From positions 4,596,501 to 4,660,500 of the forward strand of contig NZ_CP011509.1 of assembly GCF_001027285.1 (NCBI RefSeq): a stretch of 64,000 bases of DNA, written 5' to 3'. Source of the stretch: Archangium gephyra. GTDB taxonomy: Bacteria; Myxococcota; Myxococcia; Myxococcales; Myxococcaceae. Shown in pieces: positions 4,308 through 33,919 of this stretch (positions within the stretch are counted from its first letter, which is position 1; every line of letters begins with the position of its first letter). The notes beneath the pieces were generated by a model. That model saw only the letters and a program-made list of their open reading frames with translations. It was not told where the DNA came from and did no database searches. Both the position numbers and the translations under genes were made by a program.

Positions 4308-5193
4308 TTCCGCGTGAGTTTTCATCCCTCAGCCACAGCATCAACTCGCCATGGCCCTGGGTCCGCGGTGCGTCCACCTCTACGATGACCGAACCTTCGC
4401 TGTTGGGCTCAATGGGATTCTCTTGCCGAAGTTTCATCCTCCCTACCTCATGGCCCTGGGCGTCCACTAGCGAGCCAACAGCTGCTGTCCAGGGCTCAGG
4501 GCTCGAGTTCTTCAACCACAACTCCGCTGCGATGCTCTTGTCCGAGCGATAGCCGTAGCCCCACTCATAGGCCAGTACCCCCTCCGAGCGGACAAGTTCC
4601 TTCTTCTTGAGTTCTTGGCGCTGAATACCCTTTTCGCTGAGCGTCTTGTTGGCGATCAATCCGAGGAGTCCGCTCGCCTGCTCGAGTCTGACCCGTAGCT
4701 GCGCGAGCTGGGCTCGTGTTTGATCGAGTTCGTCGAGCAGTTGCTGGTTCTTCGCCTGCCCCTGAGCTATTTCGAGCTGCAGGGCCTCCCGAGGACGTTT
4801 GTCTCGGTACACCTCCACCTGGTGTGTTGATCGCCCCGGGTCGCCGACCAGGGAGAAGGTGACACGCTGTTGGGTTGAGCCCTCCCCCAGGGTTGCTGTC
4901 AGCCGGAGGCGCTCGCCCTTCACCAGATCTGGTGGTGGTAGGAGGCTCAGAGTGCTGCGCCCTCGTGTCATCTCCTGGAAGCGTACCTCGTCTTGCAACT
5001 CCACTTTCACGGGCGAGTCAAAGACGAAGTTCGTCATGAGTCCTGGGCTGACGCAGATTTCCGGGGCCTCTGCCAGAGGTACCAACGCAAGCTCGATGCG
5101 CTGCAACTGCTTGCACACCGCGTCGGGGGGCGGCTGGATGAGCGGTGCGCCTTGATGAAGCACGAGAAGCAGGATGCAGGAAGGGGGGAGCAC
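4279..5193 (-). CDS. DUF2381 family protein (Myxococcus paralogous family)
   Basis: About 304 residues. I take GTG 5193 as the start: it gives a signal-peptide-like N-terminus (LPPSCILLLVLHQG), has GGAGAAGG upstream at good spacing, and lies 23 bp after the kinase stop. The body has an N-terminal beta-rich half (SPGLMTNFVFDSPVKVELQ), a central helix or coiled coil around QLLDELDQTRAQLAQLRVRLEQ and a C-terminal beta domain (ELWLKNSSPEPWTAAVGSL). This is the layout of the DUF2381/TIGR02268 family, which I know only from myxobacteria, often next to a Ser/Thr kinase as here. It is probably exported. Its function is unknown. Confidence 0.75.
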   Translation of the reverse strand: MLPPSCILLLVLHQGAPLIQPPPDAVCKQLQRIELALVPLAEAPEICVSPGLMTNFVFDSPVKVELQDEVRFQEMTRGRSTLSLLPPPDLVKGERLRLTATLGEGSTQQRVTFSLVGDPGRSTHQVEVYRDKRPREALQLEIAQGQAKNQQLLDELDQTRAQLAQLRVRLEQASGLLGLIANKTLSEKGIQRQELKKKELVRSEGVLAYEWGYGYRSDKSIAAELWLKNSSPEPWTAAVGSLVDAQGHEVGRMKLRQENPIEPNSEGSVIVEVDAPRTQGHGELMLWLRDENSRGITVRGLTFP

Positions 5194-5216
5194 GGGCAGC
5201 CTTCTCCAGCAAGGGT

Positions 5217-6923
5217 CTATTGGAAGTGAAGTACGTGCTCGACGCTCATGATGTTGGAGACACGGGCCTTCTCGGACGTGCTGCCGGGTTCCATGGCAAT
5301 GCCCAGCCCCTTCGATGTGCTCATCTCCAGGCAAATCGGAGCCATCTCACCATCAGGCAAGCGAACCCGGGTGAAACGACCGTAGACATGGCTCTTGCCG
5401 AAAAACAGCTCGCCGTAGATGTGGGTGTGTCCGGGGAGATCGCCCCACGGGGGGAGGATCTCGCCAGTGACAGGTCCTTCCGAAACCAAGGCGTCAGGGT
5501 AGTCGGTATCAAATGGATGGATGATGATGCGTTTCATTGTGAGCGGGAGGATGTTGAATCGCTTGATGGTTGCGTCAGCGCCTGGCGGGCAGTCGGCAGG
5601 CTTCGGGGGTTGCCGATGCTGCGGACCACTCACGCAGGCGGAACCGGCAACGCAGCCGGCGGCGAGCAGGGCTCGGGTTGTCTTGGACTTCGTCATGGAG
5701 GGTTCCTCGCGGTTCGTCGCGCTGGCGGCGGGCGCGGGGGTGGATGACTGCTCAGGTGTCGCGCCGTTGCCAACCTCTCCCGTCAACTGGCCTGGAGCCA
5801 ATTCCTGGCGAGGAATGACCTGCTGCGGTGGTTTCGGGGGGGGAGACTGCTCGCGTTGGCCAGGGGGCATCTCCTTCGAGGGGGGCTGCTGCCACGGTGC
5901 GAGCAGTGAAAACGCTCCAGCTCCCCCCAGCACCACGGCGAGAACGAGCCCGGCAACCCACCATCGTGCGGGGAACTGGCGTCGGGGCTCCGCCGGGGTG
6001 GGGTCAGGACGTTGGTCTTGTCTGGCTTCCGGAAACAGCCGTACGCGCCAGCTCTTGTCCGCCTGGGTGCACTGTTCCGCCAGGTCCTCCGCGAGCGCCC
6101 GCGCATCCGGGTAGCGGGCCTCGGGCTCCTTGTCGAGCATCCGCATGCACAACTCGCTCAGCGCCAGCGGCACGCGCGGGTTGAGCACATGCGGAGCGGG
6201 TGGTGTGGTCTCGAGGATGGCTCGATTCAACCCCAGGTTGCTCCGGTCGCCGAAGGGCAGCGTGCGCGTCATCAGCGCGTAGGTGACGACGCCCATCGCC
6301 CACAGGTCATCTCCCGGTGCGAAGGGGTAGGGCTCTCCCTCCCACTGCCGGGCGAAGCGCAACGCCTCGGGGCTGCGGTACTCCGCGGTGCCCGGTGGCA
6401 GCCGCAGGGTCAGACGCGGCGCCCCCTCCTTGAGGCCCGCCGCGCCGAAGTCCACCAGCACCGGTTGCCCGTCCGCCTCGCGAACGATGATGTTGGCTTC
6501 CTTGATGTCCCGGTGCACCACGCCCGCGTCATGCACGTCCGCCAGGGTGAGCGCGAAGGGCAACAGCACGCGCGTCACCAGCTCGAGCGCGGAGGGATTC
6601 TCCCGGGCCGCCCAGGCATCGAGCGTGAGGCCCTCGACCAGCTCCAAGGCCAGGACGAGCCAGTGCGGAGCATCCTCTGGCCAGAGGCCATAGCCGTGGA
6701 AGGACACCACGTTGGGGTGCCGCATCAGCCGCAGTGCGGCCGCCTCCCGATCGCCCCGCGGGTCGATGCGCACCAGCTTGATGGCGTAGGGCCGTCCGCT
6801 TCGCCTCGCCCGGTACACGGTGCCGAAGCTGCCGGAGGCGATCGTCTCCTCGATGATGAATCCCGCCACCTCCGTCCCCGGCGCGAAGCGCGGTCCGGAA
6901 AGCTCCCCCTTCTCGTCGAGCAT
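5217..6923 (-). CDS. Membrane Ser/Thr protein kinase with C-terminal lipoprotein-like module
   Basis: 568 residues. The N-terminal Hanks-type kinase domain keeps its catalytic set: glycine loop GSFGTVY (31-37), Lys49 in YAIKLV, HRDIKEAN with Asp139 and Asn144, and DFG 158-160, so it should be active. A transmembrane helix spans about 321-342, followed by a Pro/Gln-rich linker. From about residue 410 comes a second module that itself looks like a precursor: Met, basic residues, hydrophobic ALLAAGC, then a compact domain with two further cysteines (DCPPG, PICLEM). An internal ATG at 5696 has GAGGAA upstream. The start at 6923 has GGAGG at good spacing. It is followed directly by the DUF2381 gene and they probably form one operon. 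Confidence 0.85.
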   Translation of the reverse strand: MLDEKGELSGPRFAPGTEVAGFIIEETIASGSFGTVYRARRSGRPYAIKLVRIDPRGDREAAALRLMRHPNVVSFHGYGLWPEDAPHWLVLALELVEGLTLDAWAARENPSALELVTRVLLPFALTLADVHDAGVVHRDIKEANIIVREADGQPVLVDFGAAGLKEGAPRLTLRLPPGTAEYRSPEALRFARQWEGEPYPFAPGDDLWAMGVVTYALMTRTLPFGDRSNLGLNRAILETTPPAPHVLNPRVPLALSELCMRMLDKEPEARYPDARALAEDLAEQCTQADKSWRVRLFPEARQDQRPDPTPAEPRRQFPARWWVAGLVLAVVLGGAGAFSLLAPWQQPPSKEMPPGQREQSPPPKPPQQVIPRQELAPGQLTGEVGNGATPEQSSTPAPAASATNREEPSMTKSKTTRALLAAGCVAGSACVSGPQHRQPPKPADCPPGADATIKRFNILPLTMKRIIIHPFDTDYPDALVSEGPVTGEILPPWGDLPGHTHIYGELFFGKSHVYGRFTRVRLPDGEMAPICLEMSTSKGLGIAMEPGSTSEKARVSNIMSVEHVLHFQ

Positions 6924-7125
6924 CTCCCAACCTCCAAAAAACTTCGGAGGTTACCAGGGAGATGGGCTCGTGACCTGGATGCAGTGGGTTGGGTGATAGG
7001 GGGAAAACCTGCTCCGGATGGGCGAGCGGAGTTGGCTCCAACTCCAGCATGGTTCACGGGGACCAGTGCTTCTTCCCCTCCTCATCGCCATCGCCGCAAG
7101 GTCATGCAGAAGCAAGCCCCATGTC

Positions 7126-7731
7126 TCAGGGCGTGGCGGTGGGGGGAGGCAAGGGCTGGTAGCGGAACGAGAGGCGGGCGGGTGTGCCGGCGCCGTCGTA
7201 GTACGAGAGCATCTGCAGCTTGAAGAATTGCCCGTTGCTGCTGCGGACCACGTACAGCAACTCCTCTCGGGGCGAGAGCCGGTGCACGGAGAGATCGTAG
7301 AAGTACCAGCCGCCCTCGACGCCGTTGAACACGGGCTCCGAGGCGTCCTGCTGGTAGCCCTCGGCGGGCGCGGCCGTGAGGGAGTCCCAGGGCGCGTTCT
7401 TGAGTACCGCCACCCGCACCTGGCCCGTGGGGTTGCCGCCACCCCCGTTCATCGTGATGGTGTAGCGCTGGAAGGCCAGATCCCAGGCATTGGTGGAGAA
7501 GGCCTCATCGGTCTTCATCTCCCGGCCCTCGTCGATGTCGAAGAAGACCAGGGCGGACTTGTTCGTCGCGTCGATCAGTGCGTGGGAGCTCCCGTCTTCA
7601 TGAGGCGACACCTCGACGAGGGGCCCGTTGTTCGTCTGACCATCGAAGGGGTAGTCCGAGCGCAGGTCCGGGGCACAGCCCGCCACCGCGAGCCCGAGGA
7701 GCAGCACTGTCTCGTGAATCCGTATCCGCAT
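7126..7731 (-). CDS. HmuY-family lipoprotein (putative haem/iron-carrier-binding)
   Basis: 201 residues from ATG 7731. The N-terminus VLLLGLAVAGC is a clear lipobox with Cys at about residue 17. The rest is beta-rich, with HmuY-family features such as NAWDLAFQRYTITMNGG and GWYFYDLSVHRLSPREELLYVVR. In Bacteroidetes, HmuY is a surface haem-binding lipoprotein that works with the TonB-dependent receptor HmuR; myxobacterial homologues are usually annotated only by family. A TonB-dependent receptor gene on the same strand lies upstream at 8857-10881, separated from it by two opposite-strand genes. Ligand and role are inferred from family and context. Confidence 0.7.
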   Translation of the reverse strand: MRIRIHETVLLLGLAVAGCAPDLRSDYPFDGQTNNGPLVEVSPHEDGSSHALIDATNKSALVFFDIDEGREMKTDEAFSTNAWDLAFQRYTITMNGGGGNPTGQVRVAVLKNAPWDSLTAAPAEGYQQDASEPVFNGVEGGWYFYDLSVHRLSPREELLYVVRSSNGQFFKLQMLSYYDGAGTPARLSFRYQPLPPPTATP

Positions 7732-11025: not shown

Positions 11026-13629
11026 TTACGCGGCCTTCGCCTGGCCCTTGCCGAACGTCAGCCCGTCCTTGCCCGCGTCCACCATGATGTGGTCCCCGGG
11101 CAGGAACTCGCCCCCGAGCACCTTCAGCGCCAGCGGATCCATCAGGTACTTCTGGATGGCCCGCTTCAGCGGCCGCGCGCCGTACGTCGGATCGTAGCCG
11201 CGCTCCGACAGCACGTCCTGCGCCTTCTCCGTCAGCTCCAGCGTCAGCCGCTTGTCGGTCAGCAGCTTCTGCAGCCGCGCCACCTGCAGCTCGACGATCC
11301 GCCGGATGTCCTTCTTGCGCAGCGGCTCGAAGATGATGACCTCGTCCACGCGGTTGAGGAACTCCGGCCGGAACTGCTGGCGCAGAATGCCCATCACGTC
11401 GTCGCGCGTCGCCTCGTCCAGCTCCTCCTTGCCCGCCATCCCCTCCTGCAGGGCCTGCGAGCCGATGTTGCTCGTCATGATCAGCACCGTGTTCTTGAAG
11501 TCCACGGTCCTGCCCTGGCTGTCCGTCAGCCGGCCCTCGTCCAGGATCTGGAGCAGCATGTTGAAGACGTCCGGGTGGGCCTTCTCGATCTCATCGAACA
11601 GGACCACCGTGTACGGCCGGCGCCGCACCGCCTCGGTGAGCTGGCCGCCCTCCTCGTAGCCGACGTACCCCGGAGGCGCGCCCACCAGCCGGGCCACGGA
11701 GTGCTTCTCCATGTACTCGGACATGTCGATGCGCACCATCGCGCTGTCGTCGTCGAAGAGGAACTCCGCCAGGGCCTTGGCCGTCTCCGTCTTCCCCACG
11801 CCCGTGGGGCCCAGGAAGATGAACGAGCCGATGGGCCGGTTCGGGTCCTGCAACCCGGAGCGCGCCCGGCGCACCGCGTTGCTCACCGCCTCGATGGCGC
11901 TGCGCTGCCCGATGACCCGATTGGCCAGCCGGTCCTCCATGTGCACCAGCTTCTGGACCTCGCCCTCCATCAGCTTGGAGACGGGGATGCCCGTCCACTT
12001 GCCCACCACGGCGGCGATGTCTTCCGCGTCCACCTCCTCCTTGAGGAACTTGTGGCTCTTCTGCAGCTCGGCCAGCTTCGCGTTCTGCTGGGCGATCTCC
12101 TTCTCCAGCCCGGGCACGACGCCGTACTTGATCTCCGCCGCCTTGTTGAAGTCGCCCTGCCGCTCGGCCGCCGCCTGATCGTTCTTCGCCTTCTCGAGCT
12201 TCTCCTTCTGCTCGCGGATGCCGGCAATGGCCTTCTTCTCCGAGTCCCAGTGCGCCTTCAGCCCGGTGAAGCGCTCGTTGAGCTCGGCCAGCTCCTTCTC
12301 GATCTTCCCCAGCCGCTCCACCGAGTGCGGATCCGTCTCCTTGCGCAGGCCCTCGCGCTCGATCTCCAGCTGGTTCATCTTCCGCCGGATGTCGTCGATC
12401 TCCGTGGGCATCGAGTCGATCTCGATGCGCAGGCGGCTGCAGGCCTCGTCCACGAGATCGATCGCCTTGTCCGGCAGGAAGCGGTCGGAGATGTAGCGGT
12501 TGGACAGGTTGGCCGCGGACACCAGCGCCGAGTCCTGGATGCGCACGCCGTGGTGCACCTCGTAGCGCTCCTTGAGGCCGCGCAGGATGCTGATGGTGTC
12601 GTGCACGCTCGGCTCGCCCACCATCACCGGCTGGAAGCGCCGCTCCAGGGCCGCGTCCTTCTCGATGTGCTTGCGGTACTCGTCCAGCGTGGTCGCGCCG
12701 ATGCAGTGCAGCTCACCGCGCGCCAGCGCCGGCTTGAGCATGTTGCCCGCGTCCATCGAGCCCTCGGCCTTGCCCGCGCCCACCAGGGTGTGCAGCTCGT
12801 CGATGAAGAGGACGATCTCCCCCGCCGCGTCCGCCACCTCCTTGAGGACGGCCTTGAGGCGCTCCTCGAACTCGCCGCGGAACTTGGCACCGGCCACCAT
12901 CGCGCCCAGGTCCAACGTCACCAGCCGCTTGTTCTTCAGGCCCTCGGGCACGTCGCCGTCGATGATCCGCCGCGCCAGGCCCTCGACGATGGCCGTCTTG
13001 CCCACGCCCGGCTCACCGATGAGCACCGGGTTGTTCTTCGTGCGCCGGCTGAGCACCTGGATGCAGCGGCGGATCTCCTCGTCCCGGCCGATGACGGGAT
13101 CCAGCTTCCCGGCGCGCGCCGCGTCCGTCAGATCGCGCCCGTACTTCTCCAGCGCCTGGTAGGTGGACTCCGCGTCCTGGCTCGTCACCCGGCTGGAGCC
13201 ACGCACTTCCTTCAGGCTGGACAGGACGCGATCGCGCGTCACGCCCGAGGACTTCATCACCTCGCCCACGGCGCCCTTGTCCTGCGCGAGCGCCAGCAGC
13301 AGGTGCTCGCTGGCGACGAAGTCGTCCTTGAGCGACTTGGCCTCGTCCTCGGCCTTGTCGAAGGTCTTGAGCAGCCGTTGGCTGAGCGTCGCGCCCTCGC
13401 CGCCCTGCATGCGCGGCAGCTTCTGGAGCGCCTCGCCCAACCGGCCGGCGAACAGCTTCACGTCCACGCCAATCTTGCGCAGCAGGGGCTCGACGAGGCC
13501 CTCCTTCTGCCCGAGCAACGCGGTCGCGAGATGCTCCGGCTCGTAGTTCGGGTTGTCAGCCCGGCGCGCCAGAGACTGCCCTTCCTGGATGGCCTCCTGG
13601 GCCTTGACTGTGTACTTGTCGAGTCTCAT
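11026..13629 (-). CDS. clpB: ATP-dependent disaggregase ClpB
   Basis: 867 residues from ATG 13629 ([14 protein letters not shown]), the usual ClpB length. Order: N-terminal Clp repeats ([10 protein letters not shown]), NBD1 with GEPGVGKTA, a long coiled-coil middle domain (about 410-530) that separates ClpB from ClpA/ClpC, and NBD2 with GPTGVGKTE and the [24 protein letters not shown] region. The family extracts and refolds aggregated proteins together with DnaK. A longer frame upstream of 13629 lacks family similarity and was not used. It is monocistronic, with a palindromic repeat directly after its stop. A heat-shock promoter was looked for but not convincingly seen. Confidence 0.97.
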
Positions 13630-27312: not shown

Positions 27313-29565
27313 GTGGGTTCATTCATCCGAGGGGCCGTGCTAGCCGCTCCCGCCTTGCGCCTCCGCACCCGGCTCGCCCGGCGCCGCCGCTATCCGCTCC
27401 GCCGTCAGGTCGAGGAGTCGGACTGTGGCCCGGCCTGTCTGGAGATGATCTCCGCCTTCCACGGCTCGGAGCACGCCCAGGCCCTGCTGCGCGAGCTCAC
27501 GTACGTGCGCGCCCCGGGCGCCACCCTGTTGGACATCGCCCGGGCGGCGGAGCAGCTCGGCTTCCGGGCCCGGGGGGTCCACGTGGAGGACGCGGCCGAC
27601 CTCGAGGACGAGGAGGGTCAGGCCCTGCTGCCCGCCATCGCCCACTGGGAGGGCAACCACTTCGTCGTCCTGTATGAGGTGAATGCGCGCAACGCCGTGG
27701 TGGGAGACCCCGCCGTGGGCTTGCGGCGCATCCCTCGTGCCGAGCTGGCCTCGCATTGGAACGGCATCCTCCTACTGCTCGAGCCCACCGAGGCCCTCTT
27801 CCAGCCCCGGGCCGTGTCCGACGCGCCCGTGCGCCGTCCCACCGCGCTGCGCCGCTTCGCCCACGGGATGCTGCGCTACCGCGCGCTGCTGGCGCAGATC
27901 GTCCTCGCCACGCTCCTGCTGCAAGGGCTGGCGCTGGCGCAGCCGTTGCTCGTCCAGGGTCTGGTGGACAAGGCCGTGGGCGGACGCGACGTGCCGCTGC
28001 TCACCGCCATCGGCGTGGGCCTGGGCGTCCTGCTGGCCGCTCAGGTGGCCGTCACCGCCGTCCGGGGCGCCGCCCTGTTCCTGCTCTCCGGCAGCTACTC
28101 GATGCTGCTGCTCACCCGCTTCTGGAAGCGGCTGCTGTCACTGCCCCTGTCCTTCTTCGCCCGGCGCCACCGGGGTGATCTGCTCAAGCGCATCGAGGAC
28201 CACCAGCGCATCCGCCGCATCCTCCAGGGCGCCGCCTCCTCCGTGCTGCTCGACCTCGTCATGTTGGTGGGCTACTCCGGGGTGCTCCTGCTCTACGACA
28301 CCACCGTCTTCGCCCTCTTCCTCGGCGGGGCCGTCCTCTACGCGGCCTGGACGCTGATGCTGCTGCCTCGCCGCGGCCGTCTGGACGCCGAGCGCTTCCG
28401 CGTGGGGGCCGAGGCCAGCCGCCTGGAGCTGCAGATGCTCGGCGGCATCCAGACCCTCAAGGCCGCCAGCGCCGAGCAGCAGCTGCGTGCCTCCTGGGAG
28501 CGGCTCCAGGCCCGCGACTTCGCCGCCTGCCGCCGCCTCTGGTTGCTCGACACCCTCCACCAGGGCGGCACCCTCTTCATCAACCAGGCCATGTACCTGG
28601 GCATCCTCCTCTACGAGGCCTGGCTCGTGCTCGAGGGGCGTCTGTCTATCGGCCAGCTCGTCGCCACCCTCGCCATCCTCGCCCTGGTGCTCAACCCCCT
28701 GCAGAACCTCGTCACCTTCGTGCACGAGCTGCAGGACGTGGCCCTCTCCCTGCGCCGCGTGGAGGTCGTCTACGAGGCCGAGCCGGAGCCGCTCGACACG
28801 CCAGCAGCCCAGGCTCCGGGGCTCGCGCATGCCCCGGAGATCCGGCTCGAGCACGTCACCTTCCGCTATGGCTCTCCCCATGAGCCTCCCATCCTCGACG
28901 ACGTGAGCTTCACCCTGCCCGCGGGGAAGATGACCGCCATCGTCGGCCGCTCCGGCGCGGGCAAGACCACGCTCGCCCACCTGCTGCACGGCCTCTACCG
29001 TCCCCAGCAGGGCCGCATCCTCTACGACGGCCTCCCCTTGGAGTCGCTGCCTCCCACGCGCCTGCGCCGCTCGGTGGCCTACGTCTTCCAGAAGACGGAC
29101 ATCTTCGATGGCACGCTCGCGGAGAACATCTCCCTCGGGGACGAGCGGCCCGACCCGGAGCGGTTGATGCATGCCGCTCGCACCGCGTGCCTGGATGACC
29201 TGCTCGCGCTGCCTCGGGGGTTGGACACCCGCATCGGCGAGTCCGGCATCCGTCTCTCCGGTGGCGAGGAGCAGCGCCTGCAGCTCGCGCGCGCCATCTA
29301 TCGCGACCCCCGTGTGCTCTTCCTCGACGAGGCGACCAGCCACCTGGATGCCACCACCGAGCGCGCCATCACCGAGTCGCTCCAGCGGGAGGTGGCCGGC
29401 CGCACCGTGGTGGTGGTGGCGCACCGGCTCTCCACCATCCGCCGCGCGGACCTCATCGTCGTGCTGGAGCGCGGACGCGTGGTGGAGCAGGGCACTCACG
29501 ACGAACTGCTGGCCCGAGAGGGCGGACGCTACCGCGCGCTCGTGGAGAATCAGATGGAGGGTTGA
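27313..29565 (+). CDS. Peptidase C39-containing ABC transporter (RiPP leader cleavage and export)
   Basis: About 750 residues from GTG 27313 (start uncertain; GTG 27337 is an alternative). N-terminal C39 protease: Cys38 in EESDCGPACLEM, His116 in WEGNHFVVLYEV and Asp132 in VVGDPAVG, a complete triad. A membrane domain of about six helices spans roughly 190-480. The ATPase has GRSGAGKTT (about 545), LSGGEEQRLQLAR (about 648) and LFLDEATSHLD (about 670). Such PCATs cut leaders after double glycine and export the core. The nearby precursor has exactly that site, so it is the likely cargo. A small membrane protein gene follows after three bases. Confidence 0.93.
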   Translation: MGSFIRGAVLAAPALRLRTRLARRRRYPLRRQVEESDCGPACLEMISAFHGSEHAQALLRELTYVRAPGATLLDIARAAEQLGFRARGVHVEDAADLEDEEGQALLPAIAHWEGNHFVVLYEVNARNAVVGDPAVGLRRIPRAELASHWNGILLLLEPTEALFQPRAVSDAPVRRPTALRRFAHGMLRYRALLAQIVLATLLLQGLALAQPLLVQGLVDKAVGGRDVPLLTAIGVGLGVLLAAQVAVTAVRGAALFLLSGSYSMLLLTRFWKRLLSLPLSFFARRHRGDLLKRIEDHQRIRRILQGAASSVLLDLVMLVGYSGVLLLYDTTVFALFLGGAVLYAAWTLMLLPRRGRLDAERFRVGAEASRLELQMLGGIQTLKAASAEQQLRASWERLQARDFAACRRLWLLDTLHQGGTLFINQAMYLGILLYEAWLVLEGRLSIGQLVATLAILALVLNPLQNLVTFVHELQDVALSLRRVEVVYEAEPEPLDTPAAQAPGLAHAPEIRLEHVTFRYGSPHEPPILDDVSFTLPAGKMTAIVGRSGAGKTTLAHLLHGLYRPQQGRILYDGLPLESLPPTRLRRSVAYVFQKTDIFDGTLAENISLGDERPDPERLMHAARTACLDDLLALPRGLDTRIGESGIRLSGGEEQRLQLARAIYRDPRVLFLDEATSHLDATTERAITESLQREVAGRTVVVVAHRLSTIRRADLIVVLERGRVVEQGTHDELLAREGGRYRALVENQMEG

Positions 29566-29568
29566 AGG

Positions 29569-29739
29569 GTGCATCCACGTGAGGAGGACGAAGACGACCC
29601 GACACTCACCGAGGAGCTGCGCACCGTCATGCGTCCACGCTCCGGGCGGCTCCTCGTGCTGCTGGTGTTGATGGCACTGGTGCTGGGCGCGCTGGTGCTC
29701 GTGGCCTCACGCACGGTGCTCGCCGGCTTGTGGCGATGA
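29569..29739 (+). CDS. Small single-helix membrane protein
   Basis: 56 residues from GTG 29569, three bases after the stop of the exporter. An acidic N-terminus (HPREEDEDDPTLTEELRTV) is followed by basic MRPRSGR and one hydrophobic helix LLVLLVLMALVLGALVLVAS. No family is recognised. Its spacing indicates co-transcription and perhaps translational coupling with the exporter, so it may be an accessory subunit or a remnant of an HlyD-like adaptor, of which only the anchor would be left. The coding call rests on spacing and the clean topology. Confidence 0.5.
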   Translation: MHPREEDEDDPTLTEELRTVMRPRSGRLLVLLVLMALVLGALVLVASRTVLAGLWR

Positions 29740-29806
29740 CCGCGGGGCCGGACGGCAGGGCGGTGGGGTTGTCCCCACCGTCTCTGCTCGGATTCAACGG
29801 GAGTGC

Positions 29807-29968
29807 TCAGCAGGCCAGGCAGCCAGGGGGCTCTTCGCCACACGCGTAGGTGGTGATGTCCGGGCACTTCTTGTCCTGCACGGGCCCGGCGCCACCCTCG
29901 ATGCGAGCGAGGTCCTGCACGAAGAGTTCCTTGATCTTCTTGACCTTCTTTTCCTTCTTCGGCTCCAT
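29807..29968 (-). CDS. Graspetide-like RiPP precursor peptide (double-glycine leader, TTxxxxEE core)
   Basis: 53 residues from ATG 29968, with GGAGAG six bases upstream. The lysine-rich leader contains KELFVQDLARIEGG; the LFVQDL (15-20) resembles the LFIEDL leader motif recognised by the plesiocin ligase PsnB, and Gly25-Gly26 is a C39 cleavage site. The 27-residue core has TTYACGEE (39-46), which fits the TTxxxxEE macrocyclisation motif of group-2 graspetides, here only once. It also has four cysteines (35, 43, 50, 53). Expected modification: ester bonds from Thr39/Thr40 to Glu45/Glu46 by the ATP-grasp enzyme, plus one or two disulfides. The product and its activity are unknown. Confidence 0.85.
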   Translation of the reverse strand: MEPKKEKKVKKIKELFVQDLARIEGGAGPVQDKKCPDITTYACGEEPPGCLAC

Positions 29969-30144
29969 GGTCGTCTCTCCAGGCTTCGGTGGCGCGCGGG
30001 TCCATCCCACGAGCCGCAGGCGCTCGACGAACCTGCATTCGAGAGAACGACTCCCGGAGAGAGCCCAGTCCAGGAGAGCCGAGAAGCCATTCCATGCCCG
30101 AGTGCACGCCTGCCCTGGACACGGGCGCTCGACGGCTCGGCGGC

Positions 30145-31101
30145 TCAGGGAATGGAAGTGCGCGCGGCTCGCACGAGGGCCCGCGCCAGATGCCCGAGGA
30201 GGTCCGTGCCCGCGCGCGCGTCGAAGCCGAGGAACATGGGCGAGGCGTTGAGCTCGAGGAAGCGCAGCGTGCCCCGTGCATCCCGCTTGAGGTCCATCCC
30301 CGTCCAGCGCAGCCCCACCACCTCCGTGGCCCGGAGGCACTGACGCGCCACCTCGGGCGGTAGCTCGAAGGACTCGATGCGCTCCTCGTTCTGCCGGAAG
30401 TCGAGCGCACGCGAGATGATGCGCAGGCTGGCGATGATCTCCCCGTCGAGCACGTAGACGCGCACGTCCTCGCCGGGCATCAACTCCTGGAAGGTGACGG
30501 GGGCGGCCTCCAGGGCCTCCAGCCGTGCGTCGGTGAGATCCTCGGGCCCCAGCTCCAGCGTGGCCGCGCCGCCCTCGACGGGCTTGTAGGCCACGCGCCG
30601 GCCCGCGGCGAACCGGCGCACCGCCTCCGGATCATTCGTCCAGAGTGTCTCGGGCACCGGCAGCCCCGCGTCCGCCAGGAGCGCGAGCTGTACCGGCTTG
30701 GGCGTGCGCCAGTCCGAGGTGAGCGGGTTGTAGAGCGGCACGCCCATGGCCTCCCAGCGCCCCACCAGCCCGCGCAGCAGCGTGGTCTTCTCCCGGAAGG
30801 CCACGAGCGTGGTGCGCCAGTCGTCATCCATCGCCTCCTGTGCGTCCACGCCGAAGGTGAGCGGATGGGCGTGGTAGCTGCGCAGGTAGATGGCTCCGGG
30901 CCGCTCGAGACGCCGTCCCTCCAGGGTGATGCCGTCGAGGCCTTCCGTCAGGGACAGGCGCGTCTCCTGCGGGAAGGTGAGGGTGTCCACCATGAGGGCC
31001 TCGGCTCCCTCCTGCTCGACCCGGCGCGCCAGCTCCGACACGTGCGTGTCGTCGCGGGAGCCCACGAAGAGCACGGGCCGGGCGGGTGAGCGGGTCGTCA
31101 T
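30145..31101 (-). CDS. ATP-grasp ligase (RimK/MvdD/PsnB-like), graspetide macrocyclase
   Basis: 318 residues from ATG 31101, which overlaps the TGA of the VKOR-fusion gene (ATGA). ATP-grasp landmarks: VAYKPVEGGAATLELG with the nucleotide-binding Lys, FQELMPGEDVRVYVLDGEII, and the Mg-binding end GMDLKRDARGTLRFLELNASPMF, with Asp, Glu and Asn in place. The N-terminal part (LFVGSRDDTHVSELARRVE) is the pre-ATP-grasp domain seen in MvdD-type RiPP enzymes. The family joins side-chain carboxylates to hydroxyl or amine groups. The precursor gene lies 177 bp downstream on the same strand. Substrate assignment is by context and motif. Confidence 0.88.
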   Translation of the reverse strand: MTTRSPARPVLFVGSRDDTHVSELARRVEQEGAEALMVDTLTFPQETRLSLTEGLDGITLEGRRLERPGAIYLRSYHAHPLTFGVDAQEAMDDDWRTTLVAFREKTTLLRGLVGRWEAMGVPLYNPLTSDWRTPKPVQLALLADAGLPVPETLWTNDPEAVRRFAAGRRVAYKPVEGGAATLELGPEDLTDARLEALEAAPVTFQELMPGEDVRVYVLDGEIIASLRIISRALDFRQNEERIESFELPPEVARQCLRATEVVGLRWTGMDLKRDARGTLRFLELNASPMFLGFDARAGTDLLGHLARALVRAARTSIP

Positions 31102-32870
31102 GGTGCGTGTGCTCCTTCGGGGTGGGGTTCGACGGAGGAGATCCGGGGCGTGAGGGGGTCGAGCAGGGCTGGCCGGTCGAGCCACTCGGCGACATGGGCC
31201 AGCGGTGCCTCGCAGCGGCGGCCATCGAGGAAGAGGGTGGGCAGGCCCCGGGCATGACGCTGCTTGAGCGCGGCGGCCGCGTGTACCCGGGCCCGGGCAC
31301 GCTCTCGTACGGCCATGAGTGTTCCGGCCTCCTGTCCCGCATCCGCCGCCACGAGGGCCAGGGGCTCCCCGGCGTTCCGCAGGCGCGTGTAGTCCCGTTT
31401 GGCCGCGCGGAAGAGCTGGAGGAAGAGCTCGCCTCCCCAGGCCACTCCGGCCGCCGCGAGCGCCTCGCATGCCGCCTGGTCCTTCGGGTCATCCGGGTCC
31501 ATGGGCGCGAGCGCTACGTACGCGCGCACCTGCGCTCCGTGCCGTGCCAACAGCGTCTCGAGCTCCTCGAGGACGGGGCCGCAGTGGCCGCAAGCGGGGT
31601 GCGCCAGGACGATGAGCACGTGCGGTGCGTCCGCCTCTCCCAGCCGGGGTCCGAGGGCCTCTCCGTCGAGGGCCAGCCGTGGCTCCTGGGAGAGCTGCGC
31701 GAGCGTCGCCAGTGGGGAGCGCAGCAGGCGCGTGTGCTCCCGGAGGAGGGACTCGTTCTCGCTGCCGCGGGAGAGCAGGGGCACCGAGGAGGACAGCACC
31801 AGCCCGAACAGGAGCACCAGCAGCAGCGCGGCGGGAAGCAGGCCCGGCGGCGGCGTGGGCCCCCGCGGCAGGACTCCGAGGAGGAAGACGGCCGCGCCGC
31901 CGAGGTCCACCGCATGCACCATCATGCAGAGCGTGCAGAAGCGCCGCATCCGCACCTGCGCCACGACCAGGAGCAGGGACAGGGGCAGGGTGGGGAGGAA
32001 GGCCGCGCCCGTGAGCCACGTCTGCACCGGGCCGCCGCCGAGCGGAGCGGTGCACAGCACCAGCAACTGGGCTCCGAAGAAGGCGGTACCCAGTCCGGCC
32101 AGTGGCACTCCGGCGGGACTCGCCCAGGCGGAGAGCAGCACGCTCTCGCAGTCCAGCGCTCCGCCGCCTCCACACAGGCGCGAGGCCTTGCCGTCTCGTG
32201 TCCACGAGAGCGCCGTCAGTGCCGCCGCGAGTCCCACTCCAGAGAGCAGCGCCAGCAGTGCGGTGGGCAGCCGGAGGCCGGGGGGTTGGGCGAGCACTGC
32301 CCCTACGAGCAGCACGCCTACCAGCGCCGCCAGGAATCCGCGCATCCAGGGCGAGGCGGACGGGCCGGCGAGGGCCGTCTTCAGCTTCCAGTCCCGGAGG
32401 AGCAGTTCTCGTACGCGGTGACGGAGATAGCCCGGCTCGGGCTCGCCCTCGCCGCCGTACTCCAGGAAGACCACGACTCCCGACCAGAGGGCCGAGAGCG
32501 TGTCCCGATCCATCTCCCGGCTGCCCCGCCGGCTGTCCCAGATGCGGAAGGTGCCCGGCGTGTCCTCCGTCGGCGGAGTGACCGCTTCGAGCAGGCCGAA
32601 GCCTCCCTGGGGCCCGGACTGGAAGTGGAGGATGGCGGGTAGCTCGTCCGCCTCCAGGGTGTCGAGGGTCTCCAGGTCTCCCTGGCCCGCGGTGACGTCC
32701 AGCCCCAACGCGGGAGCCTCCTGCGCCAGGGCCAGCAGGGTGCCTGGTTGCGCGTGGCGTGCGAGGACCTCGCGCACGTGGGTTCGCGAGTAGCGCAGGC
32801 CCAGGCGCCGGGCCACCTCGGCGAGGACCTCCGCCGGGTCATCGCTGGGGACGTCGGGATCTCGAAGCAT
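31098..32870 (-). CDS. C39-like / VKOR / thioredoxin-like fusion protein, putative disulfide-forming enzyme
   Basis: 590 residues from ATG 32870. The N-terminal about 140 residues resemble a C39 peptidase fold, but the position of the catalytic Cys is occupied otherwise, so it is probably non-proteolytic. A VKOR membrane domain follows (about 178-365, five helices) with the loop pair Cys233/Cys241 (LDCESV) and active-site FCTLC (312/315). The soluble C-terminus has a thioredoxin-like CGHC (427-430) in HPACGHCGPVLEEL. VKOR-Trx fusions act as DsbB/DsbA-like disulfide generators. Its stop overlaps the start of the ATP-grasp gene. The degenerate C39 domain may bind the leader; that is inference. 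Confidence 0.85.
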   Translation of the reverse strand: MLRDPDVPSDDPAEVLAEVARRLGLRYSRTHVREVLARHAQPGTLLALAQEAPALGLDVTAGQGDLETLDTLEADELPAILHFQSGPQGGFGLLEAVTPPTEDTPGTFRIWDSRRGSREMDRDTLSALWSGVVVFLEYGGEGEPEPGYLRHRVRELLLRDWKLKTALAGPSASPWMRGFLAALVGVLLVGAVLAQPPGLRLPTALLALLSGVGLAAALTALSWTRDGKASRLCGGGGALDCESVLLSAWASPAGVPLAGLGTAFFGAQLLVLCTAPLGGGPVQTWLTGAAFLPTLPLSLLLVVAQVRMRRFCTLCMMVHAVDLGGAAVFLLGVLPRGPTPPPGLLPAALLLVLLFGLVLSSSVPLLSRGSENESLLREHTRLLRSPLATLAQLSQEPRLALDGEALGPRLGEADAPHVLIVLAHPACGHCGPVLEELETLLARHGAQVRAYVALAPMDPDDPKDQAACEALAAAGVAWGGELFLQLFRAAKRDYTRLRNAGEPLALVAADAGQEAGTLMAVRERARARVHAAAALKQRHARGLPTLFLDGRRCEAPLAHVAEWLDRPALLDPLTPRISSVEPHPEGAHAP

Positions 32871-33013: not shown

Positions 33014-33919
33014 TCACGAATCTTTTCTCGTGGAGGTGGGGTCCGGCACGCACACCCAGGGTTGGCTTGGATGGTTGCGGCCACAGCGGAAACCCGGTCC
33101 ACAGGCCGAGGTGTTTTCGGGGTCACACGACTTGCGGCATTGGAAGAGGAAGCAGGCCGTTTCCTCCGGGCAGGGTGGCCTGCTCGTGCCACAACCCTGC
33201 AGACATTCCATCCAAATATGACCCGGAGTGCGCGGATTGGCATTGAGTGTGCAGTGCTGGCCCTGCGGGCAGGGGGTTTGCTCGCAATCTTGTCCATGAA
33301 TCGTCATGCAGACAGACCCCTGTCCTGCCATCAACCCGATACAGCGCTGGCCCGCCGGACAGGGTCGGTCTTCACAGGTAGGCATGCAGTAGGAGCCTTC
33401 TTTGTCGGAATGGCAATAGTACCCCTCCGGGCAACTGGCGGACTCGTCCACACGGCACGGGCGACCGCAGAATCCATGGCAGAAGAGGCCCTTCGCACAG
33501 CCGTCCTTTGGGCTTTCAGGCAGGGATTGGCAGAGTTCACCCTCCGTGCGCACGCCGGTGAGCGAGCAGATGCCGATCATGTCCTTGTCATTTTCAGCGG
33601 ACCAGGGGATGCAGGCGAAGCCTTGTGGGCAATGTTCATCCCCCGTGCACAAGCTGTCCGTGCAGTGGTAGCGGCTTGTCGGCACGTCGTAGGCGCAGCG
33701 GAGTGGATGATCGCAGTCCGCGTCGGTGCGGCAGTCATGCGCATAGGTGGGCAGGCGCAGGCGCTCCTCAAGTGAAAGCATGGGGACGAGCGTCCTACCC
33801 GGGGGCAGCGTCATCCGCTCACTGGACCCATGCCCGGACATGGCGATGGAGATCAACCAGACAAGGGGCAGAGGCATGAGGAGAACGAGCAAAGTGGACA
33901 CTGCTTTGCGCCATTTCAT
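33014..33919 (-). CDS. Cysteine-rich exported protein
   Basis: 301 residues. An N-terminal hydrophobic segment (TLLVLLMPLPLVWLISIAM) acts as signal or anchor. The remainder has about 36 cysteines in EGF/Dickkopf-like small modules: CRTDADCDHPLRCAY, CTGDEHCPQGFAC, CPEGYYCHSDKEGSYC, CPAGQRC and CGPGFRC. Such proteins fold outside the cytoplasm with many disulfides, and their function in myxobacteria is unknown. Composition is somewhat less GC-rich than the neighbours. It lies 12 bp after a small lipoprotein gene, in the same operon, and 143 bp from the VKOR-fusion gene start on the same strand. Confidence 0.7.
   Translation of the reverse strand: MKWRKAVSTLLVLLMPLPLVWLISIAMSGHGSSERMTLPPGRTLVPMLSLEERLRLPTYAHDCRTDADCDHPLRCAYDVPTSRYHCTDSLCTGDEHCPQGFACIPWSAENDKDMIGICSLTGVRTEGELCQSLPESPKDGCAKGLFCHGFCGRPCRVDESASCPEGYYCHSDKEGSYCMPTCEDRPCPAGQRCIGLMAGQGSVCMTIHGQDCEQTPCPQGQHCTLNANPRTPGHIWMECLQGCGTSRPPCPEETACFLFQCRKSCDPENTSACGPGFRCGRNHPSQPWVCVPDPTSTRKDS

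Follow-up and report, generated by a model that had tools for sequence, protein, structure and literature searches.

The DNA analysed here, a window of 64,000 nucleotides at positions 4,596,501-4,660,500 of the 12.49 Mb single-contig genome of the soil bacterium Archangium gephyra, carries a compact locus that is best read as belonging to a subfamily of group-2 graspetides that has its own, perhaps leader-guided, disulfide pathway. The locus spans positions 27313-32870 (5.6 kb) and encodes a C39-peptidase ABC exporter, a small membrane protein, a precursor peptide, an ATP-grasp ligase, and a fusion of a C39-like domain, a vitamin K epoxide reductase (VKOR) domain and a DsbA-like thioredoxin domain. 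An earlier, sequence-only reading had proposed this five-gene set, and all five genes are borne out at the coordinates below. Judging from the sequences, the likely product is a graspetide of group 2 (plesiocin type) with two disulfides in addition. It would probably be a short peptide held by side-chain ester rings and two disulfide bonds, with a membrane enzyme for the latter. The exporter and membrane protein genes lie on the plus strand; on the minus strand the order of transcription is fusion, ligase, precursor, with an ATGA overlap (31098-31101) between the fusion and ligase genes.

27313..29565, plus strand: C39-peptidase ABC exporter, 750 amino acids from a GTG (the true start may be later)
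29569..29739, plus strand: 56-amino-acid membrane protein, found at 4/5 fusion loci
29807..29968, minus strand: precursor peptide, 53 amino acids, four cysteines, with conserved leader, double glycine (GG), TTxxxxEE and cysteines
29831..29854, minus strand: core motif TTYACGEE, residues 39-46, predicted to form nested ester rings that enclose one cysteine
29891..29896, minus strand: double glycine, residues 25-26, predicted cleavage site
29909..29926, minus strand: leader motif LFVQDL, residues 15-20
30145..31101, minus strand: ATP-grasp graspetide ligase, 318 amino acids (7drm, 322 bits, 156/301 identical)
31098..32870, minus strand: C39-like/VKOR/DsbA-like fusion, 590 amino acids
31161..31682, minus strand: DsbA-like thioredoxin domain of the fusion, residues 397-570, C427/C430 (DsbA-type structures, Z up to 16.5)
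31860..32315, minus strand: VKOR domain of the fusion, residues 186-337, C233/C241 and C312/C315 (6wv7, Z 13.3)
32442..32843, minus strand: C39-like domain of the fusion, residues 10-143, without catalytic Cys or His (ComA and PCAT1 folds)

The assignment to group 2 follows from the ligase and from the motifs of its presumed substrate. Pfam recognizes a RimK-type ATP-grasp protein, and the named relatives are from myxobacteria (Myxococcus, Pyxidicoccus, Sorangium). The closest PDB entry by far is 7drm (52% identity over the aligned residues), which we take to be PsnB, the plesiocin synthetase; the next matches are 5ig9 (55 bits), 7qyr, a glutamate ligase (45 bits), and CdnC (26 bits). The ligase is thus closest to PsnB and not to MvdC/MvdD or to ligases outside the ribosomally synthesized and post-translationally modified peptides (RiPPs); a non-RiPP ligase, the outcome that would have undone the sequence-only reading, was rejected on this ground. 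Plesiocin has an LFIEDL leader motif and a TTxxxxEE core, neither of which our literature search returned in this sense, and the corresponding LFxxDL-like and TTxxxxEE motifs of the window's precursor are LFVQDL and TTYACGEE.

The sequence of the precursor is MEPKKEKKVKKIKELFVQDLARIEGG / AGPVQDKKCPDITTYACGEEPPGCLAC (slash, predicted cleavage site), with cysteines at residues 35, 43, 50 and 53, and GGAGAG lies directly upstream of its ATG. It has no Pfam match and no convincing relative in the PDB (best E 1.2). In the six frames of the window it is the sole frame joining LFxxx[LW] to TTxxxxEE; a chance motif was rejected, as there is no second such frame and the precursor is kept at other loci. 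Indeed, a four-Cys precursor is found at five further loci, in four other genomes, and the nonsynonymous rate (dN) is below the synonymous rate (dS) in 15/15 pairs of the six four-Cys precursors, which argues for a maintained gene, on small counts (dS/dN is 0.59/0.11 for the window and L068 and 1.05/0.31 for the window and L014; in the closest dN/dS pair, L068-L067, dN is 0.17 and dS 0.26). Double-glycine leaders have consensus positions at -12, -7 and -4, and L15, L20 and I23 occupy these positions relative to cleavage after the GG. Since L15-L20 is also the LFVQDL ligase motif, the two patterns overlap, and one leader could serve the ligase, the C39-like domain and the exporter in turn.

Support for a link between the fusion and the cysteines comes from their distribution. 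Searching 195 genomes of the phylum for the ligase (E below 1e-55) turned up 27 loci, spread over 26 genomes from a single family and four genera; with Sorangium cellulosum So ce26 (L014), taken from a different collection, the set comes to 28 loci (L009-L013, L015 and L016 match seven loci already in the set and are left out of this number). Of the 28 loci, 26 have a precursor, and each of these precursors shows both LF.. and TTxxxxEE. Exactly four cysteines are found in six of them (window, L067, L068, L069, L070 and L014), arranged as C-x3-TT-x2-CGEE-x3-C-x2-C in the window, L068, L067 and L014 and as TT-x2-CCEE-x4-CC in L069 and L070. In these six the GG stands one residue after LFVQDLARI; the remaining twenty lack cysteines altogether and have no GG in this position (6/20 have a GG elsewhere). 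The fusion accompanies 5/6 four-Cys precursors, 0/20 Cys-free precursors and 0/2 precursor-less loci (Fisher p 9e-5 for fusion against four-Cys precursor, a value that ignores kinship), so that the disulfide proposal of the sequence-only reading gains support. As for the other genes, the precursor and the exporter are present at 5/5 fusion loci; a precursor missing from relatives with the other genes would have counted against the sequence-only reading, which passes this check too.

In a ligase tree rooted on 7drm the Cys loci do not form one clade (approximately unbiased test, p 0.00036). The window group (window, L067 and L068) is sister to five Cys-free loci, with support 98/96, and these five are without fusion, exporter and leader GG. 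This placement suggests that the cysteines, the GG, the exporter and the fusion come and go largely together. The distant paralogues L093-L095, which gave very long branches and weak forks in a first tree, were dropped from the final one. Gene order also varies: the precursor precedes the exporter in L069 and L070, and L014 has it ahead of the fusion, with a further gene between ligase and exporter. The ligase and the fusion remain adjacent and co-directional at 5/5 fusion loci, while precursor and exporter shift.

The fusion is not restricted to this ligase type. A relative 49-50% identical to that of the window lies in genome G091 in a grasp-with-spasm graspetide cluster (G091:C6:572000-590000; L097 7664-9409 for the fusion relative, with 6267-7250, 5056-6063 and 7356-7586), together with a TIGR04192 ligase (266 bits, cut-off 230), a TIGR04193 SPASM maturase (306 bits) and a two-Cys GG precursor. 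One other grasp-with-spasm locus, in G104, was found among 96 genomes of the family, again with a two-Cys precursor. Taking G091 with the five fusion loci, L067 and G104, the fusion goes with Cys-bearing precursors in 6/6 cases, and cysteines do not require the fusion. Furthermore, the number of cysteines is even in every Cys-bearing precursor, four in six and two in the two grasp-with-spasm ones. A search of plasmids for the fusion gave no match at E 1e-5.

In the window's fusion Pfam finds VKOR (54.5 bits), Thioredoxin_4 (25.0, cut-off 23.2) and Peptidase_C39 (24.3, cut-off 22); across six fusion homologues, VKOR and C39 are recognized in 6/6 and Thioredoxin_4 in 3/6. Aligning these six shows C233/C241 (CX7C), C312/C315 (CXXC), C427/C430, C468 and C553 to be invariant, and the transmembrane core, CXnC loop pair and CXXC pair that define the VKOR family are all present. 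An AlphaFold2 model built from the six sequences has a mean pLDDT (predicted local distance difference test) of 72.8 and a pTM (predicted template modelling score) of 0.38, values that make it usable for domains only; its folds match the ComA and PCAT1 peptidase domains (Z ~15), DsbA-type proteins and human VKOR (6wv7). The sequence-only reading had recognized this C39-like/VKOR/thioredoxin-like fusion, which stands with one refinement: the N-terminal domain lacks the Cys and His of the Cys-His-Asp triad and is no peptidase. The first cysteine of the protein is residue 233, the Pfam match to C39 starts at profile position 17, and in a pairwise MAFFT alignment with the exporter's C39 domain the catalytic Cys is absent, the His position reads GGF and the Asp is kept; BLASTP between the two domains gave no match. 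An active second peptidase was rejected for the missing Cys and His. The domain is a dead peptidase, like the C39-like domain of 3zua, which we take to be HlyB. It is probably a binding module, and by analogy we infer that it should bind double-glycine leaders.

Outside the locus, VKOR is found in 94/96 genomes of the family, and the window's genome has an ordinary one, so the fusion is an addition to the ordinary disulfide system. In the maps of open reading frames (ORFs) for the extra VKOR genes of G003 and G004 (L112, L113), no C39 active-site motif was flagged.

On which side of the membrane would the fusion act? The model has six predicted transmembrane helices, the helix at 174-193 preceding the usual five, and this extra helix would put the C39-like domain, the active-site loops and the DsbA-like domain on one side. 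Lys and Arg number 15, 12, 17, 18, 13 and 10 on the active side of the six fusions (of 86-90 residues) and 0, 1, 0, 0, 2 and 0 on the opposite side (of 16-19 residues), or 11-20 and 1-2 when helix ends are included. By the positive-inside rule this distribution suggests that the active side faces the cytoplasm, with few residues on the opposite side to count and some model loops at pLDDT under 50. The contrast has p 0.07 for the window's fusion alone and p 8e-5 when pooled with the relatives treated as independent. The ordinary VKOR encoded elsewhere in this genome has 6 Lys and Arg among 74 residues on its active side and 8 among 47 on the opposite side (p 0.15, not significant). Oxidation may occur on the cytoplasmic side, toward which we lean. 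A paper on Aeropyrum pernix, cited in PMC12453122, names in its title a VKOR acting in two compartments.

These elements can be arranged into a pathway. The ATP-grasp ligase would bind the LFVQDL of the leader and link both threonines of TTYACGEE to both glutamates, giving nested ester rings as homology predicts. The C39-like domain would then bind the same double-glycine leader and deliver the core to the DsbA-like domain; given the domains and their intact Cys pairs, the DsbA-like domain is expected to oxidise the four cysteines of the core and to be re-oxidised by the VKOR domain, with electrons passing to quinone. The C39-ABC exporter would finally cut after the GG and export a 27-residue core, for which the calculated monoisotopic mass is 2725.16 Da with two rings and two disulfides and 2765.22 Da in linear form. 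A more specific version, in which the fusion is a VKOR of inverted orientation that faces the cytoplasm, its dead peptidase domain a leader-binding module, and the double-glycine peptide oxidised on its leader before export, is one that we take seriously but do not quite favor; just as tentatively, oxidation of the peptide would then share a compartment with ring formation.

Several observations weigh against a graspetide made by such a disulfide pathway. NCBIfam puts the ligase among ATP-grasp peptide maturases, but all models score far under their cut-offs (TIGR04187, 74.5 bits against 350). Two loci, L076 and L083, gave no precursor, either by motif or by ORFs just upstream of the ligase. 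L067 (genome G003) pairs a four-Cys precursor with a ligase of 89% identity but has neither fusion nor exporter within ~7 kb on either side, the whole G003 genome has no fusion match at E 1e-3, and G104 combines its two-Cys precursor with a genome in which no fusion match was found at E 1e-15. Finally, the least numbers of changes on the tree are two for the cysteines and three for the fusion; with only two independent contrasts, a sign test cannot reach significance.

L067 also bears on the alternatives. After export the cysteines could oxidise on their own or through the general periplasmic system, and the fusion could serve another purpose, for example by setting the redox state of the exporter's peptidase or of another envelope protein; four cysteines without a fusion in L067 and the near-universal ordinary VKOR of the family would fit this explanation. 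We nevertheless judge it unlikely: exporters without a fusion are common (12/23 fusion-free loci), so the exporter does not need it, and none of the 20 loci with a Cys-free precursor has the fusion. Use of the cysteines in other chemistry (thioester, thioether or metal binding), the fusion only keeping the thiol state, seems to us less likely still. Some graspetide synthetases can form non-native thioester links (PMC13097080), and Makarova et al. propose thioethers for cysteines of other graspetide precursors near radical SAM enzymes (PMC8939145). However, the TT and EE are kept in 26/26 precursors, so that the usual donors remain, no radical SAM or lanthionine-type gene was seen by Pfam and NCBIfam among the window's five genes, and the DsbA-like oxidising partner argues for disulfides. 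That the locus is a decaying or chance neighborhood, without a ring former acting on the precursor, is very improbable; L067, which lost the exporter and the fusion or never had them, could be an instance, but the frames are open, dN is below dS in every precursor pair, and the gene set recurs at five loci in changed order.

The exporter itself contains Peptidase_C39, ABC_membrane and ABC_tran by Pfam, and its catalytic residues are intact, with Cys in SDCGPAC, His in NHF and Asp in GDPA, which makes it a peptidase-containing ABC transporter. The 56-amino-acid membrane protein goes with the exporter and not with the fusion: it lies beside the exporter at 11/12 fusion-free exporter loci (E 1e-5), the twelfth, L084, matching weakly. 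At L077-L082 and L084-L087, Cys-free precursors without the usual GG leader stand beside an exporter whose C39 catalytic Cys is intact.

Some neighboring genes were noted. Adjoining the cluster on the minus strand (33014-33919) is a Cys-rich 301-amino-acid protein with a hydrophobic N-terminal stretch, which has no NCBIfam match at E 1e-5 and was not seen at the matching place in the L068 ORF map. L067 (7305-8598, G003:C1) occupies the same chromosomal site as the window's cluster, with the same phosphoribosyltransferase gene adjoining, and acyl-CoA dehydrogenase-like genes follow where the exporter and fusion are missing (both named by eye). In L070 (10798-12822, G002:C1), MvdD-like and MvdC-like ATP-grasp genes (433.6 and 410.3 bits, each slightly short of its cut-off) lie ~1.6-3.6 kb beyond the fusion, beside a small ORF (12864-13097) with repeated SEGYF units; two graspetide clusters thus appear to stand side by side there. 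The window's own genome has two adjacent distant ATP-grasp paralogues in L094 (7323-9296, G000:C1:3627500-3643000), possibly another graspetide cluster.

In the literature, conserved cysteines of graspetide precursors have been considered as possible thioether donors (PMC8939145, a phylogenomic analysis of 2022); the text of that paper, as searched, has no disulfide, thioredoxin or vitamin K, and the main text of PMC13097080 has no disulfide, cysteine or VKOR. A text search of PMC4555120 gave neither C39 nor a fusion. Disulfides do come up in two papers: PMC13003496 mentions a leader cysteine that was mutated so that no disulfide would form, as well as engineered products with disulfide bonds, and PMC12291112 an engineered protein with one disulfide. 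None of the titles and abstract openings covered describes a disulfide-bearing graspetide from nature or a graspetide cluster with a VKOR, nor was any paper found that joins vitamin K epoxide reductase, C39 and RiPP, or that treats grasp-with-spasm. Since supplementary tables and earlier surveys may list the fusion, we claim only a variant not found described in the literature searched.

Besides microviridin acetylation, the authors of PMC13097080 (2026) know of a single further secondary modification of graspetides, from methyl ester to aspartimide, and they also cite a recent aminomalonate-forming step. A dedicated disulfide pathway, if true, would be one more, and would unite ester rings and disulfides in one scaffold, within a class that includes potent serine protease inhibitors. 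Should the C39-like domain recruit the GG leader, it could be transplanted to introduce disulfides into peptides of choice, and an inverted fusion would amount to a portable leader-guided disulfide synthetase for RiPPs, common to at least two graspetide types. The twenty cysteine-free relatives are natural controls.

Compared with known systems, the window's cluster resembles plesiocin and group 2 in ligase type, in its LFxxDL-like leader and TTxxxxEE core, and in its NHLM-type peptidase exporter, which shows high co-occurrence in group 2 (PMC13097080). It differs in having one core unit, plesiocin being tetravalent with tandem repeats (PMC12291112), and in its four cysteines, its C39-like/VKOR/DsbA fusion and a GG leader that overlaps the ligase motif. 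The Synechococcus VKOR (4nv2) and the Clostridium VKOR-DsbA (PMC12453122) share with the fusion the CXnC and CXXC pairs and a thioredoxin partner in one chain; the window's protein adds an N-terminal C39-like domain and an extra transmembrane helix, sits in a RiPP cluster, and has a charge pattern that suggests the opposite orientation. The dead C39-like domains of 3zua and 3b79 likewise have a C39 fold without peptidase function, but the one described here is joined to a disulfide-forming enzyme and not to an exporter. Grasp-with-spasm clusters (TIGR04192/TIGR04193) also pair an ATP-grasp ligase with a Cys-bearing GG precursor, and that of G091 has a relative of the fusion, whereas their ligase belongs to a different family and they have a SPASM maturase.

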